Source of the DNA: Candidatus Kuenenia stuttgartensis
GTDB lineage: Bacteria; Gemmatimonadota; Gemmatimonadetes; Gemmatimonadales; Gemmatimonadaceae
Reading direction: 5' to 3'
Length of the DNA: 57,415 nt
Assembly (NCBI GenBank): GCA_943330235.2
Contig: CALQGY020000010.1
Span: 1-57,415, forward strand
The position numbers and the translations under genes are program-made. The notes beneath the pieces are model-generated. The model was not told where the DNA came from. It ran no database searches and saw only the letters and a program-made list of their open reading frames with translations. Positions 41,598 to 48,401 of this stretch are shown here, piece by piece. Position 1 is the stretch's first letter; each line of letters opens with the position of its first letter.

Positions 41598-42671
41598 ATG
41601 GGCGGCGCGGGCGCTGCCTCGGGGAACGCCTCGGGGAACGCCTCGGCGCCGGTCGCGCGCAAAAAGCGCGTGGGGGTGATCGGCACGTTCGTGTGGGACG
41701 TCATTCACGGGCGCGACCGCCGGTCGGTGCCGGTGGAGGAATGGGGCGGGATCACGTACTCGCTGGCCGGCTTGGATGCCGCGCTCGCGGACGATTGGGA
41801 GATCGTGCCGCTCTGCAAGGTCGGGAGCGATCTGGCGGAGCGCGCCCGCGCGCACTGTCGCACGCTGCGTCATCTCGCGCCCGATGCGGCCCTCATCGAG
41901 GTGCCGTATCCGAACAACCGCGTGGAGCTGCGGTATCTCGATGACGAGCGGCGCAGCGAGTACCTCTCGGGTGGCGTGCCCGGATGGACCTGGGTGGCGC
42001 TCAAGCCGGTGCTCGATGACGCGCGGCTGGATGCGCTGTACATCAACTTCCTGAGCGGCTGGGAGCTCGACCTCCCGACCACGCAGATGATCCGCGCGCA
42101 TTTCCAGGGGCCCATCTACTGCGACCTGCATATGCTGGTGATGGCCGTGCAGTCCGACGGGTTGCGTGTAGCGCGTCCGCTGCCGGATGTGGCGGCCTGG
42201 TGCAGCTGCTTTGACGTGCTGCAGGTGAACGAAGACGAGATGCAGATGATGGCGCCCGACTCGATGGCGCTCGCGGCCACCGCGATGGCCGCCGGCGTCT
42301 CGTGCCTCTGTGTGACGCTGGGCAAGCGCGGCGCCGTGTACGTGGCGGCACCGGGTGTGGATCGCTTGTCCGATATCCCCCGTCTGTCAGGTCACACTTC
42401 CTCGCTGTCCACATCACCGCGTGGCGGTCAGGGGGCGCTGGGGGCGGTCCGTACGGGGCTTGTGCCGTCCGTGCCTCCGCGTGTTGACGGCCCTGGCGAT
42501 CCCACCGGATGTGGCGATGTGTGGGGCTCCACCCATTTCTCGCGACTGCTCGCCGGTGATATGTTCACAGAGGCGATTGGCGCGGCCAACCGTGCGGCGT
42601 CACGCAATGTGGAACACCGCGGCGCCAGTGGACTCGCGCAACACCTCCGGGGAGAGCTCAGCACGACGTGA
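41598..42671 (+). CDS. PfkB-family carbohydrate kinase
   Basis: 357 residues from ATG 41598. The N-terminal ~18 residues are a low-complexity Ala/Ser/Gly/Asn stretch (ASGNASGNASAP) from a 12-bp repeat. The core begins RVGVIGTFVWDVIHG and includes EEWGGITYSLAGLDAALADD, PYPNNRVELRYLDD, CVTLGKRGAVYVAAPG and the catalytic anion-hole motif DGPGDPTGCGDVWGSTHF with its base Asp. PfkB enzymes phosphorylate ribose, fructose, adenosine and others. The substrate cannot be assigned. The stop overlaps the next gene's GTG (GTGA), so the kinase is coupled to the GHKL-STAS protein. Confidence 0.88.
   Translation: MGGAGAASGNASGNASAPVARKKRVGVIGTFVWDVIHGRDRRSVPVEEWGGITYSLAGLDAALADDWEIVPLCKVGSDLAERARAHCRTLRHLAPDAALIEVPYPNNRVELRYLDDERRSEYLSGGVPGWTWVALKPVLDDARLDALYINFLSGWELDLPTTQMIRAHFQGPIYCDLHMLVMAVQSDGLRVARPLPDVAAWCSCFDVLQVNEDEMQMMAPDSMALAATAMAAGVSCLCVTLGKRGAVYVAAPGVDRLSDIPRLSGHTSSLSTSPRGGQGALGAVRTGLVPSVPPRVDGPGDPTGCGDVWGSTHFSRLLAGDMFTEAIGAANRAASRNVEHRGASGLAQHLRGELSTT
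41616..41646 (+). repeat. 12-bp tandem repeat, 2.6 copies
   Basis: GCCTCGGGGAAC is repeated twice perfectly with a third partial copy, encoding the repeated Ala-Ser-Gly-Asn tail at the PfkB N-terminus. Frame is preserved. Confidence 0.85.
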
Positions 42672-43618
42672 CCACCGTGATCAGCGTGCCGCCATCGCTC
42701 GACGAGCAGTCGTTCGAAGTCATCTTCGAGCAGTTGGCGACGGTGCCCATCGGGCAGAAGATTCTCGTGGACGCGCGTCATGCCCGTTGGGCCTCGCCGT
42801 ACGGGCTCACCTCGCTGTTATGCGTCGCGCAGTCGCGCCCCGACCGCATGGCGTTCGCGGTGCCGGAGCACCCCGATACGCTGTCGTACTGGTCGCGCAC
42901 GGGCTTCTTCCGTTACGCCGGCGAACTGTTCGAGTTGCACGGGACGGTGCCGCGCGCGCGTGAGGCGCACGAGTCCGATGTGCTGCTGGAGATCACGCCC
43001 ATCGTGCAAAGCGATGACGTGCACGGCGTAGTGGGGCGCATTCAGCAAAAGGCCGCCGACATCCTGCACGGACAGCTGGGGCTCGATACCGCCATCACCG
43101 GCGCGTTCGGCATGACCCTCAGTGAGTCGTGCCAGAACATCGTGGAGCACGCGGGACAGGGCGGCTGGGTGGCCGTGCAGACGTACAAGTATCTGCGTCG
43201 CCTGGGCCGCCGCGTGGTGGTCATCGCGGTGTGCGATGCGGGCGTCGGATTCAAGCGCTCGCTGGAGAGCGCGCCCGGTCATCGACGCAGTGATCGCTGG
43301 GACGACGCCATGGCACTGGAAGATGCGGTGCTGCGTGCAGTGAGCCGCTTCCGGCATGGAGACAAGGGGCGCGGCCAGGGCTTGGCCGGCATTCGTCGCT
43401 TCGTCGGCCGCTGGCACGGCAAGCTGTCGGTTCGCAGCGGCACGGCGCGGCTCGCGATTTCGCCCGGCTGGGATGAAGACGTCCCGATGACCGAGTCGTT
43501 GCCGTACTTCCCCGGCTCGCAGATGCAAATCACGATTCCCGAGCGTATCGGGGATCCGACGCCGCGCCCCGGCGCGGCAGTGGCCTCACGGACGCGAACC
43601 CGGGAGCGATCATCATGA
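42668..43618 (+). CDS. STAS-like + GHKL ATPase protein (anti-sigma-factor-like)
   Basis: 316 residues. Residues ~1-92 look like a STAS-type domain (VPIGQKILVDARHARWASPY, then YWSRTGFFRYAGELFELHG). Residues ~115-270 are a GHKL ATPase of the anti-sigma-factor type: N-box MTLSESCQNIVEHAGQGG (Glu153, Asn157, His161), G1 ICDAG-type VCDAGVGFKRSL (Asp190) and G2 GDKGRGQGLAGIRRF. It lacks a phospho-acceptor His domain and membrane helix, so it is unlikely to be a conventional sensor kinase. It is fused with a STAS-like domain and coupled by ATGA to a second STAS-like gene, suggesting a partner-switch pair. The target is unknown. Confidence 0.75.
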   Translation: MTTVISVPPSLDEQSFEVIFEQLATVPIGQKILVDARHARWASPYGLTSLLCVAQSRPDRMAFAVPEHPDTLSYWSRTGFFRYAGELFELHGTVPRAREAHESDVLLEITPIVQSDDVHGVVGRIQQKAADILHGQLGLDTAITGAFGMTLSESCQNIVEHAGQGGWVAVQTYKYLRRLGRRVVVIAVCDAGVGFKRSLESAPGHRRSDRWDDAMALEDAVLRAVSRFRHGDKGRGQGLAGIRRFVGRWHGKLSVRSGTARLAISPGWDEDVPMTESLPYFPGSQMQITIPERIGDPTPRPGAAVASRTRTRERSS

Positions 43619-44172
43619 CGCACCGGATCGACGTGAGCAGCGTCTTGCGGTCGACGGTGACCAGCCTGTATTCGAATCTCGTCACGCGCCCCACTGGGGC
43701 CGCGGTGCGCACGGCGATCGAACAGCAGGTCGTGGACATCGGCGTGCCGGTGGTGACGACGATCGATTTCTCGCAGGTGAACCTGCTGGACTTCTCGTGC
43801 GCCGACGAGATCGTCGCGAAGCTGCTGCTGCGGTACGCGGACGTGGACGGTCCGTCGGGGTACTTGCTGTTCCTCGGGATCCATGACGGCCATCTCGATC
43901 CGATCGAGACGGTGCTGGAACGGCACGAGCTGGCGCTGGTGGCACTGCACGACGGCCGCGCCGAACTGTACGGCTGCGCCAGCGAGGACGAGCGGTGGTT
44001 GTGGGAGGTGGTCCGCGAGGACGGCCCCATTACCGCGTGGGATGCGGCGCGCGCCATTGACGCCCCGTTAGCGGACACCGAAGTGCTGCTGGACGTGCTC
44101 TGTCGCCGTCGCTTGATCATGCACGGCGATCAGGGGTATGTGATTCCTGGGGCCATTCCCTCGATCTCCTGA
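43615..44172 (+). CDS. STAS-like (DUF4325-type) protein with winged-helix domain
   Basis: 185 residues. The ATG overlaps the upstream stop by 4 bases. Residues ~30-110 form a STAS-like domain: VPVVTTIDFSQVNLLDFSCA is the strand-helix signature, followed by DEIVAKLLLRY. A middle segment is acidic. Residues ~125-180 look like a winged helix (LWEVVREDGPITAWDAARAI, LLDVLCRRRLIMHGDQGYV), which could bind DNA or protein. With the preceding GHKL protein it forms an ATPase/STAS pair of the kind used in partner switching. No sigma factor is adjacent, so the output is unknown. Confidence 0.7.
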   Translation: MTHRIDVSSVLRSTVTSLYSNLVTRPTGAAVRTAIEQQVVDIGVPVVTTIDFSQVNLLDFSCADEIVAKLLLRYADVDGPSGYLLFLGIHDGHLDPIETVLERHELALVALHDGRAELYGCASEDERWLWEVVREDGPITAWDAARAIDAPLADTEVLLDVLCRRRLIMHGDQGYVIPGAIPSIS

Positions 44173-44179
44173 GCTTTCC

Positions 44180-44479
44180 ATGGCCAAATTCAGCTTATTC
44201 TCGCCGCCGCTTCAGGTGGTCGGCTTCATCGCCACGCGGTCCGGCGATCCGGAACGTGGCCCGATGGTGCGCATGCGCCCGGACGACGCCCTCATCCGCC
44301 TCGTGTCGGACGGGGAGTTGGTGCGCGTGGTCTCTGAGCGTCGCTCGGAGATCGCGGTGCTGGAAATCGACGAAACCGTGCCCCGCGGCGGTGTCGTCCT
44401 GCGCGACGTGGCCGGCGCGTCACCGTCCGAAATCGTGCGCATCGTCAAGATGGAGACCGACACCCACCGTTACGCCTGA
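44180..44479 (+). CDS. Small beta-rich protein, DPBB-like
   Basis: 99 residues, 7 bases after the STAS-like gene. The sequence is strand-rich: FSLFSPPLQVVGFIATRSGD, VRMRPDDALIRLVSDGELVR, VVSERRSEIAVLEIDETVPR and GGVVLRDVAGASPSEIVRIV. The pattern (DDALIRLVSDGELVRVVS followed by VPRGGVVL) recalls the double-psi beta-barrel end domain of molybdopterin oxidoreductases, but it is free-standing here. This resemblance is weak and by eye. It lies between the switch pair and the PLP-type gene and is likely co-translated. Confidence 0.6.
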   Translation: MAKFSLFSPPLQVVGFIATRSGDPERGPMVRMRPDDALIRLVSDGELVRVVSERRSEIAVLEIDETVPRGGVVLRDVAGASPSEIVRIVKMETDTHRYA

Positions 44480-44492
44480 CGCGGAGCCGTCC

Positions 44493-45599
44493 GTGCATCG
44501 CGAAACGGTACTGCTCCACGGGGGGCGCGACCTGGGCACGGGGGTCCACTCGCCAGCGGCGCGTTTGGACGACGGTGGGAGCACCGACTACCTCGGCCGC
44601 CGACTGGCGGCGCTGGACGGTACCGACGCCGCGGTGGTGCTGGCGAGCGGCATGGCCGCGACCACCTGCACGCTGCTCGCGCTGCTCGGATCGGGCGACC
44701 ATCTCGTGGCCAGCCGTTGGCTGCCCGGCCGCGTGCGCCGGTTTCTGCAAGAGGAGTTGGCCGCGCAAGGCATCGACGTCACGTTCGTCGACCCCACCGA
44801 CGCGCGTGGATGGCGGCGCGCCGTGCGTCAGACGACGCGCGTGCTCTTTCTCGAATCGCCGGCCGACCCGTCGACGCGCGTGATCGATCTGCAGCCCACC
44901 AGCGCGCTGGCGCAGGAACATGGAATCGCCCTCGTCATCGATTCGACGTTCGCCTCGCCCATCAATTTTCGGCCGACGGAGCATGGCGCGGATGTCGTGA
45001 TCCATGCCTCGACCACGCTGCTCAGCGGATCGGCCGACGCCGTGGGCGGTGTCGTGTGCGGGAGCGAGTCGCTGGTGGACGAAGTGCGCCGCAAGATGGC
45101 AATCTGGGGCCCAGTGCCCGACCCCGCGGGTCTCGCGCTCTTGGCGCGTGGCCTGACGACGCTGGCGGTTCGTGTACGTCGTATGGAGGAGAACGCGATG
45201 CAGCTAGCCGAGTGGGCGAGTGCGCACCAGGCCATCAGGGCGGTGCACTATCCCGGATTGGTAACGCATGCGGATCACGAGACGGCGCGCGCCACGCTGG
45301 ACGGCTACGGCGGTATGCTCGCGATTGAACTCCTCGGCGGACCGGACGCGGCGACGCGGATGATCGCGCGCCTTCAACTCGTGGCCCACGCCACCACGGC
45401 GGGTAGCGTCGCCTCGTCGGCGTGCGAAGCACGTGAGAGTTCGCATGCGCCATGGAGCAGCGAGCCATGGAGCGGCGAGCCGTCGAGCGGCGAACCGCGC
45501 GCCGCGGTCGGGGTACCGGACGGCCTCGTGCGACTCAGTGTGGGACTGGAGCACGTTGACGATCTCATCGCGGATCTGGCACAGGCGTTGGAGTCCTGA
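44493..45599 (+). CDS. Cys/Met metabolism PLP-type protein lacking the PLP lysine
   Basis: 368 residues from GTG 44493 (GGAG 7 bases upstream). Architecture follows cystathionine gamma-synthase/lyase: ASGMAATTCTLLALLGSGDH, then LVIDSTFASPINFRPTEHGA, then GADVVIHASTTLLSGSADAV, then GGVVCGSESLVDEVRRKMAI, ending LVRLSVGLEHVDDLIADLAQ. In the family the fourth segment reads SATKY and its Lys holds PLP. Here it is STT, with Thr at residue 175 (bases 45015-45017). The YSRxxNPT phosphate-binding segment is also shortened to STDYLGRRL. A Ser/Glu/Pro insertion replaces the usual catalytic loop near residue 310. It is probably not a PLP enzyme. The stop shares a base with the ftsE ATG. Confidence 0.85.
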   Translation: MHRETVLLHGGRDLGTGVHSPAARLDDGGSTDYLGRRLAALDGTDAAVVLASGMAATTCTLLALLGSGDHLVASRWLPGRVRRFLQEELAAQGIDVTFVDPTDARGWRRAVRQTTRVLFLESPADPSTRVIDLQPTSALAQEHGIALVIDSTFASPINFRPTEHGADVVIHASTTLLSGSADAVGGVVCGSESLVDEVRRKMAIWGPVPDPAGLALLARGLTTLAVRVRRMEENAMQLAEWASAHQAIRAVHYPGLVTHADHETARATLDGYGGMLAIELLGGPDAATRMIARLQLVAHATTAGSVASSACEARESSHAPWSSEPWSGEPSSGEPRAAVGVPDGLVRLSVGLEHVDDLIADLAQALES

Positions 45600-46315
45600 T
45601 GGCCGGTATCCTGCGTTTGATGAACGTGACGAAGGAGTATCCGCGATCGGGCGCCGCCCTGCGCGATGTGTCGTTCGAGCTCGACAAAGGAGAGTTCATC
45701 TTCTTGGCGGGGCACAGCGGCGCGGGGAAGAGTACGCTGCTCAAGCTCATCTCCATGACCGAACGCCCCACGTCGGGCGAAGTGCGCGTGTCGGGCTATT
45801 CGTCGCTTGGCATCAAGCCGCGCGAAATCCCGTCGTTGCGTCGTCGGTTAGGGATCGTGTTTCAGGACTTCCGTCTCCTCCCCGATCGCACCGCCGAACA
45901 GAATGTGGCCTTCGCGCTTGAGGTCACCGGAGCGCCGCGCGCCTCCATCGGCCCGAAGGTGTCGCGCCTGCTCATGCAAGTCGGGCTCGCGTCCAAGGCC
46001 ACGTCGTTTCCGCATGAACTGTCCGGCGGCGAGCAGCAACGGGTCGCCATTGCCCGCGCGCTCGTCAACGATCCGTTTGTGTTGCTCGCCGACGAGCCCA
46101 CCGGCAATCTGGACGAAAAGGCCACACACGCCATCTACCTGCTGCTGCGCGAGATCAACGCGTCGGGCACGGCGGTGGTGATGGCCACGCACGATGTGGC
46201 GCTTATCGAGCGCACGGGGCTGCGGTTCCTGGAGCTCGACCGCGGCGTGCTCAAGTTCGACGGCACCGACGTGGCGCGCCTCAAGGCCGACTTGCGCGGC
46301 GGGGGACGGCGATGA
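45599..46315 (+). CDS. ftsE: Cell division ATP-binding protein FtsE
   Basis: 238 residues. ABC ATPase: Walker [18 protein letters not shown]-loop [20 protein letters not shown], signature [16 protein letters not shown], Walker [17 protein letters not shown] and H-loop [10 protein letters not shown]. FtsE binds FtsX in the septal ring and drives an ABC-like switch that activates peptidoglycan hydrolases rather than transporting substrate. The ATG shares its first base with the PLP-type gene's stop (TGATG), and the stop overlaps ftsX by 4 bp. Confidence 0.96.
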
Positions 46316-47172
46316 GACTCGCCTGGCGTGAAGTGCTGCTCGCGTTCCGGCGGTCGCCGGCGTTGGCCGTGCTCAGTGTCACCACGATCGCGTTTTCCCT
46401 CTTCGCCTTCGGTCTCTTCGGTCTGGTGGCGATCAACATTCAGTCCGCCCTGCGACAAATTGAGAATCGCGTGGAGATCCGCGCGTTCCTCGTTGACGGC
46501 GCCACCGAAGTGCAGGTGAACGAGTTGCTGGCTGCGGTGCAGCGACTGCCGCAGGTGGCCGACGTGGGGTACGTCAGCCCGGACTCCGCGTTGCAACGGG
46601 CGCGCGCCGAGCTCTCGGAGTTCAGCGACGTGATGGACGGGGCGTTGCTGCCGGGATCGGTGGAGCTGCGCCTCAAACCTGGCACGCGCGATCCGGAAAC
46701 AATGCAGCAGATCACCGGACGCCTGCAGACGTATCCGGTGGTCGAAGAAGTGCGCTACGGCCGCGAGTGGGTGGAGAAGTTGTATCGCGTGCGCACCGTC
46801 GTCGGCGTGGCGGGGACGGGGCTGGGGCTGGTCTTCGCGTTGGTCGCCGTGATCATCATTGGCGCGACCATCCGGATGGCCATTCTGGCGCGCACGCGCG
46901 AAATCGAGATCATGCGGCTCGTGGGTGCGACGAATGCCTTCGTGCGTCTGCCGTATCTGATTGACGGGACGCTCAAGGGGATTGCCGGCGGGCTCATCGC
47001 GCTGGCGCTCGCGTGGACTGCCAATCGGGTCGTGACGGAATCGTTCATGGCCACGGAGTTCTTCACCACCGAGCAGATGGCGCTTGGTATTGTGGCCGGT
47101 GCGGTGATTGGCCTGCTGGGCAGCTGGATCTCCGTGGGACGACACCTGCGACGCGTCTGGAACGAACCGTGA
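46312..47172 (+). CDS. ftsX: Cell division protein FtsX
   Basis: 286 residues. Four membrane helices: an N-terminal one (PALAVLSVTTIAFSLFAFGL), a large periplasmic loop of ~120 residues (VQVNELLAAVQRLPQVADVG), then VVGVAGTGLGLVFALVAVII, a coupling segment RMAILARTREIEIMRLVGAT, and two C-terminal helices. The LARTREIEIMRLVGATNAFV motif is the FtsX/MacB coupling helix. The periplasmic loop recruits the hydrolase activator encoded next. It shares a stop/start base with the envC-like gene (TGATG). Confidence 0.95.
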   Translation: MRLAWREVLLAFRRSPALAVLSVTTIAFSLFAFGLFGLVAINIQSALRQIENRVEIRAFLVDGATEVQVNELLAAVQRLPQVADVGYVSPDSALQRARAELSEFSDVMDGALLPGSVELRLKPGTRDPETMQQITGRLQTYPVVEEVRYGREWVEKLYRVRTVVGVAGTGLGLVFALVAVIIIGATIRMAILARTREIEIMRLVGATNAFVRLPYLIDGTLKGIAGGLIALALAWTANRVVTESFMATEFFTTEQMALGIVAGAVIGLLGSWISVGRHLRRVWNEP

Positions 47173-48401
47173 TGGGCGTGCGTGCGATCGGGCGGGCGGC
47201 CGGCCTGCTCGCGCTGGTCGTGATGTCGGCGATGGTGCCGCGCGCGCTGGCGGCGCAGGGGGCCGGTGGCGCCGCGGCCACCACGCCGGAGCAGCGTCTG
47301 CGTCAGCAGCAGGACGAACTCGACAAGCTCCGCCGCGAGCGCGCGGACCTTGAGGCCAAGATGGCGCAACTCCAGCGGAGCGCGCGGTCGCTGGCGGACG
47401 AGGTGAACAACATCGAGGCGCAGCGCAGCACGACGGCGCGTCTTGTGGCGGCGCTGGATCAGCAATTGACGACCATCACGCGCGAAGTCGAGACCGCGAG
47501 CGCGGGGCTGTCGCGCGCCGAGCAGGAGATCGTCAACAAGCGCAACGCGCTGCAACGCCGCATGGTGGACATCTACAAGCGCGGGCAGCTGTACGATGTG
47601 GAAGCGCTGCTGTCCGCGCAGTCGTTCGCCGCGCTGGTGGCGCGCTATAAGTATCTGCACGATCTCGCGCTGCATGACCGCACGTTGGTGCGACGCGTGG
47701 AAGCGTTGCGCAACAATATCGTCGCGCAGCGAGAACTCCTCGTGCGTCTGCAGGATGATGTCACGCGCAATCGCACCGAGAAGGAGCGCGAGGCGCGCCG
47801 CCTGGCGAGTCTGGAAGGCCAGCGTCAGCGCAACCTCACGCTGGTGCAGCGCAGTGCCACGCAGACGCGCGAGCGACTCACGCAGATTGCACGCGATGAA
47901 GCGCGCGTGGCCAGCGTGATCGCCAGCTTTGAAACGGCGCGACGGCGCGCCGAGATGTCCCCCAATGCGAAGCCCGCTGCGCCGTCCACCATTCGCACGT
48001 CCGATCTCGGGCGCCTCGACTGGCCGGTGGACGGGGACATTCTGTATCGCTTCGGGCGCGTGGTGAACCCGAACAACACCACCACGCGATGGAACGGATT
48101 AGGGATTGGTGCGAATGCCGGCACGCCGGTGCGCAGCATTGCGGCAGGCGAGGTGGTGCTGGCCGAGAACGTCGGCACGTACGGGCCCACCGTGATCGTG
48201 CAGCACGGCGGCGGTGACTACTCGGTGTACGGCTCGCTGGCGCGGATTGATGTGAAGAAGGGGCAAGAAGTGCAGAAGGGGCAGACGTTGGGAACGGTGG
48301 GGGCGGCGGACCCGGATCTTCCGCCGCATGTGCACTTGGAGATTCGCCCCAAGGGGCGCGCGGTCGACCCGCTGGAGTGGTTGCGGGCGCAGAAGCGCTA
48401 A
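47172..48401 (+). CDS. envC: EnvC-like murein hydrolase activator
   Basis: 409 residues with a signal peptide (LLALVVMSAMVPRALAAQG). Two coiled-coil regions follow (RQQQDELDKLRRERADLEAK; REARRLASLEGQRQRNLTLV). The C-terminal degenerate LytM domain (~300-405) starts at LDWPVDGDILYRFGRVVN and contains RWNGLGIGANAGTPVRSIAA, then VQHGGGDYSVYGSL. The HxxxD zinc motif of active LytM peptidases is absent (WNGLGIG), as in E. coli EnvC, though HVHLEIR is retained. EnvC does not cut; it is gated by FtsEX and activates amidases. The position directly after ftsEX supports this. Confidence 0.92.
   Translation: MGVRAIGRAAGLLALVVMSAMVPRALAAQGAGGAAATTPEQRLRQQQDELDKLRRERADLEAKMAQLQRSARSLADEVNNIEAQRSTTARLVAALDQQLTTITREVETASAGLSRAEQEIVNKRNALQRRMVDIYKRGQLYDVEALLSAQSFAALVARYKYLHDLALHDRTLVRRVEALRNNIVAQRELLVRLQDDVTRNRTEKEREARRLASLEGQRQRNLTLVQRSATQTRERLTQIARDEARVASVIASFETARRRAEMSPNAKPAAPSTIRTSDLGRLDWPVDGDILYRFGRVVNPNNTTTRWNGLGIGANAGTPVRSIAAGEVVLAENVGTYGPTVIVQHGGGDYSVYGSLARIDVKKGQEVQKGQTLGTVGAADPDLPPHVHLEIRPKGRAVDPLEWLRAQKR

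Follow-up and report, generated by a model that had tools for sequence, protein, structure and literature searches.

A predicted PLP-less pseudoenzyme of the Cys/Met-metabolism family is retained next to ftsE in Gemmatimonas, with likely recurrent loss of the catalytic lysine

The window, by which we mean the whole stretch of 57,415 nucleotides that was analysed, contains a cluster of genes on the forward strand in which a homolog of the Cys/Met-metabolism PLP enzymes is located immediately upstream of ftsE. The features of the cluster are listed below, and active-site residues are numbered with methionine gamma-lyase (MGL) from P. putida, structure 3vk2, as the reference.

42668..43618, + strand: 316-aa HATPase_c protein (PF02518, 26.6 bits, cut-off 26.4)
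43615..44172, + strand: 185-aa protein (no Pfam or NCBIfam match)
44180..44479, + strand: 99-aa ORF (Molydop_binding, 29.7 bits, cut-off 26.8)
44483..44486, + strand: Shine-Dalgarno-like GGAG before the GTG of the pseudoenzyme ORF (sequence)
44493..45599, + strand: predicted PLP-less Cys/Met-metabolism pseudoenzyme ORF, 368 aa, GTG start (PF01053, MGL alignment, AlphaFold2, Foldseek)
44547..44588, + strand: approximate site of the missing N-terminal arm, YPRYGN, MGL Y59/R61 region (by eye; breakpoints inferred)
45015..45017, + strand: codon ACG, Thr175, at the PLP-lysine position, MGL K211 (alignment)
45449..45493, + strand: 15-bp in-frame tandem repeat (Ser/Glu/Pro), three copies (repeat and alignment)
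45599..46315, + strand: ftsE, one-base overlap with the pseudoenzyme stop (TIGR02673, 280.3 bits, cut-off 264.85)
46312..47172, + strand: ftsX (FtsX and FtsX_ECD Pfam domains above cut-off; TIGR00439, 219.1 bits, under the cut-off of 255)
47013..48401, + strand: EnvC/PcsB-like M23 peptidase ORF, start codon not settled (PF01551, 93.2 bits)

The pseudoenzyme frame consists of 368 codons with no internal stop. The GGAG motif sits 6 nt 5' of the GTG start, and the TGA stop shares one base with the ATG of ftsE in the sequence TGATG. In the window's family, the gene order is HATPase, 185-aa gene, 99-aa gene, the gene studied here, ftsE, ftsX and M23 peptidase, as far as the stretches reach. Other families of the order have the same gene order but no match to the 99-aa ORF, which among the genome loci examined is present only in the window's family. 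The 99-aa protein, whose gene separates that of the 185-aa protein from that of the pseudoenzyme, matches a molybdopterin-dinucleotide-binding domain just above the cut-off.

The window protein matches PF01053, the family of Cys/Met-metabolism PLP enzymes, over residues 31-367 with 296.1 bits (cut-off 27, E = 3.7e-88). It is thus homologous over nearly its full length to methionine gamma-lyase, O-succinylhomoserine sulfhydrylase and cystathionine gamma-synthase. It differs from these enzymes in lacking the PLP lysine and the YxR arm, and in the changed equivalents of Tyr114, Asn161, Ser208 and Ser340. The 25 listed of its 58 NCBIfam matches all fall far under their cut-offs, the best with 283.5 of 600 bits, and for the Lys-bearing, ftsE-linked homologs at L006 and L010 none of the 25 matches listed per protein is to an equivalog above its cut-off. 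The AlphaFold2 model has a mean pLDDT of 87.3, with residues 1-26 unordered, and the fifty Foldseek hits listed for it are methionine gamma-lyases and close kin, the best being 2rfv (TM 0.86, 1.6 A over 340 columns, 34% identity). A second non-Lys protein, from L127, was predicted with a pLDDT of 92.3. Both AlphaFold2 alignments contain Lys-bearing relatives, and the confident fold therefore does not count as independent evidence; L145, which has a stop within its stretch, was removed from the structure alignments. Membership in PF01053 as an active enzyme was judged by the profile, the PLP lysine, the Tyr59*/Arg61* arm, the phosphate contacts and the fold, and naming such genes after active Cys/Met enzymes from the profile match alone would mislead.

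The original prediction had described a homolog of the Cys/Met PLP enzymes in which Thr175 replaces the PLP lysine, the YSRxxNPT phosphate clamp is missing and the C-terminal loop is replaced by a Ser/Glu/Pro repeat. The profile match bears out the first of these points and the alignment to MGL the second, and a comparison by eye with Lys-bearing relatives and the repeat itself agree with the other two. The PLP lysine of MGL, K211, aligns with T175, and further changes are seen at S208 (A172), Y114 (P78), N161 (D125) and S340 (T302), while D186 (D150), G89 (G53), T210 (T174) and R375 (R347) are retained. In MGL, Tyr114, Asn161, Asp186, Ser340 and Arg375 have roles in contacting PLP or the substrate, and Asp186 pairs with the pyridine nitrogen. 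Three of the four positions that correspond to PLP-phosphate contacts (A172, T174, G53 and M54) are as in MGL; of these four, positions 172, 174 and 54 are variable genus-wide. According to PMC9087591, the phosphate is contacted in MGL by the side chains of Ser208 and Thr210 and the backbones of Gly89 and Met90, and is held across the dimer by the Tyr59*/Arg61* arm. By eye, this arm, which reads YPRYGN in Lys-bearing relatives, is absent from the window protein, and a remnant of the N-terminus, LHGG..SP, survives just upstream of the missing segment. The three in-frame copies of the 15-bp repeat occupy the place of the loop that follows EPRxTSH in the Lys-bearing relatives.

To see how widespread the replacement is, we surveyed all 30 genomes available for the window's genus, Gemmatimonas, and found the gene at the locus in 27 of them. 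The PLP-lysine position is replaced in 26 of the 27 copies, by ten different residues (five A, five V, four T, four L, three M, and one each of R, G, H, F and E), and the single Lys-bearing copy is that of genome G007. For all copies but this one, the answer to the question, raised with the original prediction, of whether the clade is conserved as non-Lys is thus affirmative. Chance, a sequencing error or a local mutation is ruled out, since 26 of 27 copies are non-Lys, among them those of the single-contig genomes G020, G028 and G029, which carry F, L and A at this position. For each of 31 genomes from other genera, the best copy has Lys; ftsE is in the stretch in 30 of the 31, and every one of these 30 ftsE-linked copies thus keeps the lysine. 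The original prediction held that ftsE-adjacent homologs with Lys would point to an error or a local mutation. Such homologs occur in other genera and, within Gemmatimonas, in G007 only, but this dates the change instead of indicating an error. Among 73 named loci, 56 have Lys, 16 lack it and one is without data at the site, the 16 being from genomes already among the 26 and thus not independent. L103 and L104, both titled "Gemmatimonas sp.", retain Lys and were not counted as genus members because a quick neighbour-gene tree placed them outside the genus clade of the window. The paralogs at L002-L005, and L062, which has no ftsE in its stretch, were excluded from the ftsE-linked sets.

Other active-site positions differ in how they fared. 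Asp (D150 in the window protein) and the Gly89 equivalent are both present in 26 of 26 non-Lys rows, and Arg (R347) is present in 22 of the 24 that reach that column. The MGL N161, S208, T210 and S340 positions vary widely across the genus, and the Tyr114 position, which is Tyr in 17 of 17 other-genus copies, is Tyr in none of the 26 non-Lys copies. In the literature searched, with subscription journals mostly out of scope, we found no description of a lysine-less, ftsE-linked gene in Gemmatimonas.

To count the losses, we compared trees of the neighbouring genes with that of the gene itself, all of which are quick trees. In the neighbouring-gene trees, the window genome, G002 and the Lys-bearing G007 form one group inside the non-Lys lineages (SH-aLRT 99 and 97, FastTree 1.0). 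The flanking-gene tree (ftsE, ftsX and envC; 32 rows) rejects a single non-Lys clade with an AU p-value of 0.000217, and a tree made to unite the non-Lys genomes is worse by 53.6 log units; this test omits L041 and L154, where contigs end, and uses 7 of the 17 outgroup rows of the earlier neighbour tree. In the gene's own tree a single loss is not rejected (p = 0.40), and the copies of G007 and the window are placed together (89%) at the base of the genus, the genus clade having a support of 98%. This placement inside the genus clade leaves a recent transfer of a Lys-bearing copy into G007 unsupported. Searched for as an independent species marker, rpoB gave no match in G007. The branch length is 0.43 for the window copy vs 0.10 for that of G007, and the raw identity of the G007 copy is highest to Lys-bearing copies of other genera (0.716) and lower to that of the window (0.64). 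Slow evolution of the G007 copy would produce this pattern, although the pattern is also a caution.

The copy in G007 keeps the motifs SATKYLNGH, SLGG and EPRxTSH, and a regain of the lysine is therefore not credible. Taken together with the flanking-gene tree, this implies at least three losses, a count that rests on one Lys-bearing draft genome, which is 79% complete with 5% contamination and in which the contig starts inside the gene. On this count, the losses would be one in the G018/G008 pair, one or two in the group of the window and G002, and one in the large clade; the branching order of the window, G002 and G007 is poorly resolved.

We then asked how strongly selection acts on the lysine-less copies. 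The tree-based omega is 0.124 in non-Lys clade A (7 taxa) and 0.075 in clade B (8 taxa), with likelihood-ratio statistics against omega = 1 of 596.1 and 936.2, respectively, compared with 0.042 in the Lys-bearing clade (8 taxa) and 0.029 for ftsE in all three clades. Estimated separately, the core and the C-terminal part have omega values of 0.103 vs 0.186 in clade A and 0.064 vs 0.091 in clade B. Compared with the Lys copies, the non-Lys copies thus show an approximately two- to threefold relaxation of selection. The selection is still strong, and it is weaker in the C-terminal part. These fits comprise 7 of 9 clade-A rows, 8 of 13 clade-B rows and 8 of 17 Lys-bearing rows, and they contain no row from the window, G002 or G018/G008. 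The clade-B rows left out are L126, L044, L055, L133 and L051, four of which are among the most divergent copies. Pairwise maximum-likelihood estimates for 11 close, unsaturated non-Lys pairs, which share taxa, range from 0.008 to 0.191, each with a likelihood-ratio statistic of at least 69.9, and those for three Lys-bearing pairs range from 0.027 to 0.035. Pairs with saturated dS (L052/L053, L001/L042, L034/L057 and L028/L032) were set aside. For the tested clades, the clade fits and the close pairs rule out a plain neutral pseudogene. For the window copy by itself, the evidence for purifying selection is weaker than for the two clades. The pair of the window and G007 has an omega of 0.087 at a dS of 2.9, and under simulated neutral drift the chance that the window copy has no stop is 6.5% at 0.2 and 1.5% at 0.35 substitutions per site, so that a long constrained phase followed by a short neutral drift is still conceivable for this copy.

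A comparison of 17 Lys-bearing rows from other genera and G007 with the 26 non-Lys rows identified 51 columns that are conserved in both groups and 44 that are conserved only with Lys. The latter include the lysine, the equivalents of Met90, Asn161, Ser208, Thr210 and Ser340, and part of the late loop. The family-specific positions, computed from 17 non-Lys and 28 ftsE-linked Lys rows against 23 outside homologs, that are common to the Lys and non-Lys copies include R105, R108, A146, E197, V198, K201, M202, W205 and P209. Each occurs in at most 35% of the outside homologs, and W107 occurs in 30% of them. The stretch 197-209 reads EVRxKMxxWGxxP regardless of the presence of the lysine, and R105, W107 and R108 are invariant in 20 aligned genus copies (19 of the 26 non-Lys copies and G007). 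This set would fit a role that is independent of catalysis, and a lineage-specific structural solution would look alike. The Lys-bearing orthologs of other Gemmatimonadales genera share R105/W107/R108, EVRxKMxxWG and the neighbourhood with the window protein. They differ from it in having SATKYLNGH, the YPRYGN-type arm and the EPRxTSH loop, in addition to the low omega of their clade, and from these sequences they appear to be active enzymes.

The linkage to ftsE is close within the genus. ftsE is in view downstream of the gene at 24 of the 26 non-Lys loci, the other two contigs ending inside the gene, and in all 24 the gap is no more than about 30 bp. At loci from other genera, the gap is at most 25 bp in 25 of 30 and more than 90 bp in five, reaching 1.1 kb in L007. 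In three related Gemmatimonadota loci, L116, L117 and L125, the Lys-bearing gene is located behind the HATPase/185-aa pair, and no match to ftsE was found in the examined stretch of these loci; the pair may therefore be the older neighbour. In L137, the pair is located about 3.7 kb from the gene. The pair resembles a regulatory switch pair.

The genomes G027 and G011 (loci L193 and L194) have the 99-aa gene and ftsE with no copy of the gene between them, and ftsX is kept as well. The distance from the 99-aa gene to ftsE is about 115 bp in L193 and about 60 bp in L194, where the start was chosen by eye. G027 adjoins G016 within non-Lys clade A (0.996), and G011 falls inside the genus at a poorly supported place. 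A third genome, G003, which is 59% complete, gave no match to ftsE. The ftsE of G011 is unusually divergent, with 60-64% identity. The absence of the gene from two Gemmatimonas genomes indicates that the role of the pseudoenzyme is dispensable in some lineages, and of all observations it weighs most heavily against the protein being important for FtsEX function. It also makes it unlikely that the frame serves only as a spacer for translational coupling. From its coupling to ftsE, the protein had originally been predicted to have a role linked to FtsEX and cell-wall turnover. The adjacency to ftsE is conserved, with a gap of at most about 30 bp at 24 of 24 non-Lys loci and of at most 25 bp at 25 of 30 other-genus loci, but the role itself is not established by it, and both the three loci without an ftsE match and the two genomes that keep ftsE and ftsX without the gene speak against it. 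The link to FtsEX is only genomic.

We suggest, with a probability of roughly 0.6, that the gene product is a PLP-less pseudoenzyme that arose from the Cys/Met (fold type I) group and is kept for a non-catalytic role, probably an interaction, that predates the loss of the lysine. That the protein is dead, as far as its sequence tells, and yet conserved is well supported, and recurrent loss of the lysine is likely. A non-catalytic job is probable because selection still conserves the lysine-less protein. The earlier proposal of a binding, scaffold or regulatory derivative thus holds for a catalytically dead and retained protein (26 of 27 copies non-Lys, contacts lost, purifying selection), and we infer the binding role and its partner. 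Before the loss, the enzyme would already have had a second, non-catalytic role, most likely the binding of a partner encoded in the same cluster, which could be the HATPase/185-aa pair, FtsE or the protein itself as a dimer. The reaction would then have become superfluous, with other Lys-bearing paralogs remaining in the genome; the window's own genome contains four. The active site would have decayed, probably several times, as selection for the binding role maintained the polypeptide, and the gene would subsequently have been deleted in at least two lineages. LCB1/SPTLC1 of serine palmitoyltransferase is of fold type I. Similar to the window protein, it belongs to a PLP-enzyme family, lacks the PLP lysine and is evolutionarily retained, according to PMC3794620. 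It differs in being of another family and in partnering an active protein, LCB2.

A more specific and tentative reading, which we consider rather unlikely, is that the enzyme had already taken up a moonlighting function throughout Gemmatimonadota, either in regulating the cell-wall hydrolysis that FtsEX drives or in the linked HATPase switch, and that catalysis was shed repeatedly and in parallel in Gemmatimonas with the regulation persisting. Pseudoenzymes are often treated as single old events, and if this reading were true, the locus would be a natural replicate series for the conversion of an enzyme to a scaffold. Within one genus, the same locus beside division genes shows a relative that keeps Lys, numerous dead versions in which ten residues replace the lysine, in what look like several independent losses, and deletions of the gene. 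It is therefore testable which part of the enzyme survives the loss of catalysis, as is the contact of the cluster-bound protein with FtsE or the HATPase pair.

It is doubtful that we are instead looking at a dying gene, in which catalysis is no longer needed and the frame is slowly lost, with residual selection only against misfolding or against polar mutations upstream of ftsE. Such decay would agree with the two lineages without the gene, the eroded arm and C-terminal loop and the two- to threefold rise in omega, and because the gene nearly touches or overlaps ftsE, an open frame could be favoured. However, omega is 0.064-0.186 in the core and tail of the two clades, far below 1, no internal stop was matched in any of the 27 Gemmatimonas copies, and the residues R105, W107 and R108 are invariant. 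Moreover, ftsE is intact directly after the 99-aa gene where the pseudoenzyme is gone, which shows that it does not need the pseudoenzyme frame.

The protein could also act as a regulatory subunit in mixed oligomers with a Lys-bearing Cys/Met paralog (MetZ-like or cystathionine gamma-synthase-like), which we regard as improbable. The conserved stretch 197-209 presumably corresponds to the region of MGL that reaches the site of the neighbouring subunit, and suitable paralogs are present in the genome. A precedent is the lysine-less LCB1 as the partner of LCB2 (PMC3794620). Against this, the pseudoenzyme lacks the arm needed to complete the partner's site, the gene is linked to ftsE and not to a paralog, and three paralogs are present in G011 even though it has lost the gene.

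There is a slim chance that the PLP-free pocket is a ligand sensor, in which the retained Arg (R375) and Asp (D186) would still bind an amino-acid-like ligand and the signal would be passed on to FtsEX or to the HATPase/185-aa pair. The retention of D150 in 26 of 26 and of R347 in 22 of 24 non-Lys rows would fit such a pocket, but both residues may be structural, and the wide variation at the N161, S208, T210 and S340 positions is not what a conserved binding site would show.

There are fold-type-I enzymes that do without the lysine, such as the His-bearing dehydratases ColD and E1, and all 26 non-Lys rows retain Gly89 and the Asp partner of the pyridine nitrogen, but a PLP enzyme that uses another residue is very improbable here, as the substitute differs by species (T, L, A, M, R, G, V, H, F or E), Tyr114 is gone in all 26 and the arm is absent. 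The position of Tyr114, residue 78 of the window protein, is occupied by Arg in 20 of the 26 non-Lys copies and is missing from the columns conserved only with Lys because these copies share this residue. The Arg is derived and may have been fixed once or selected.
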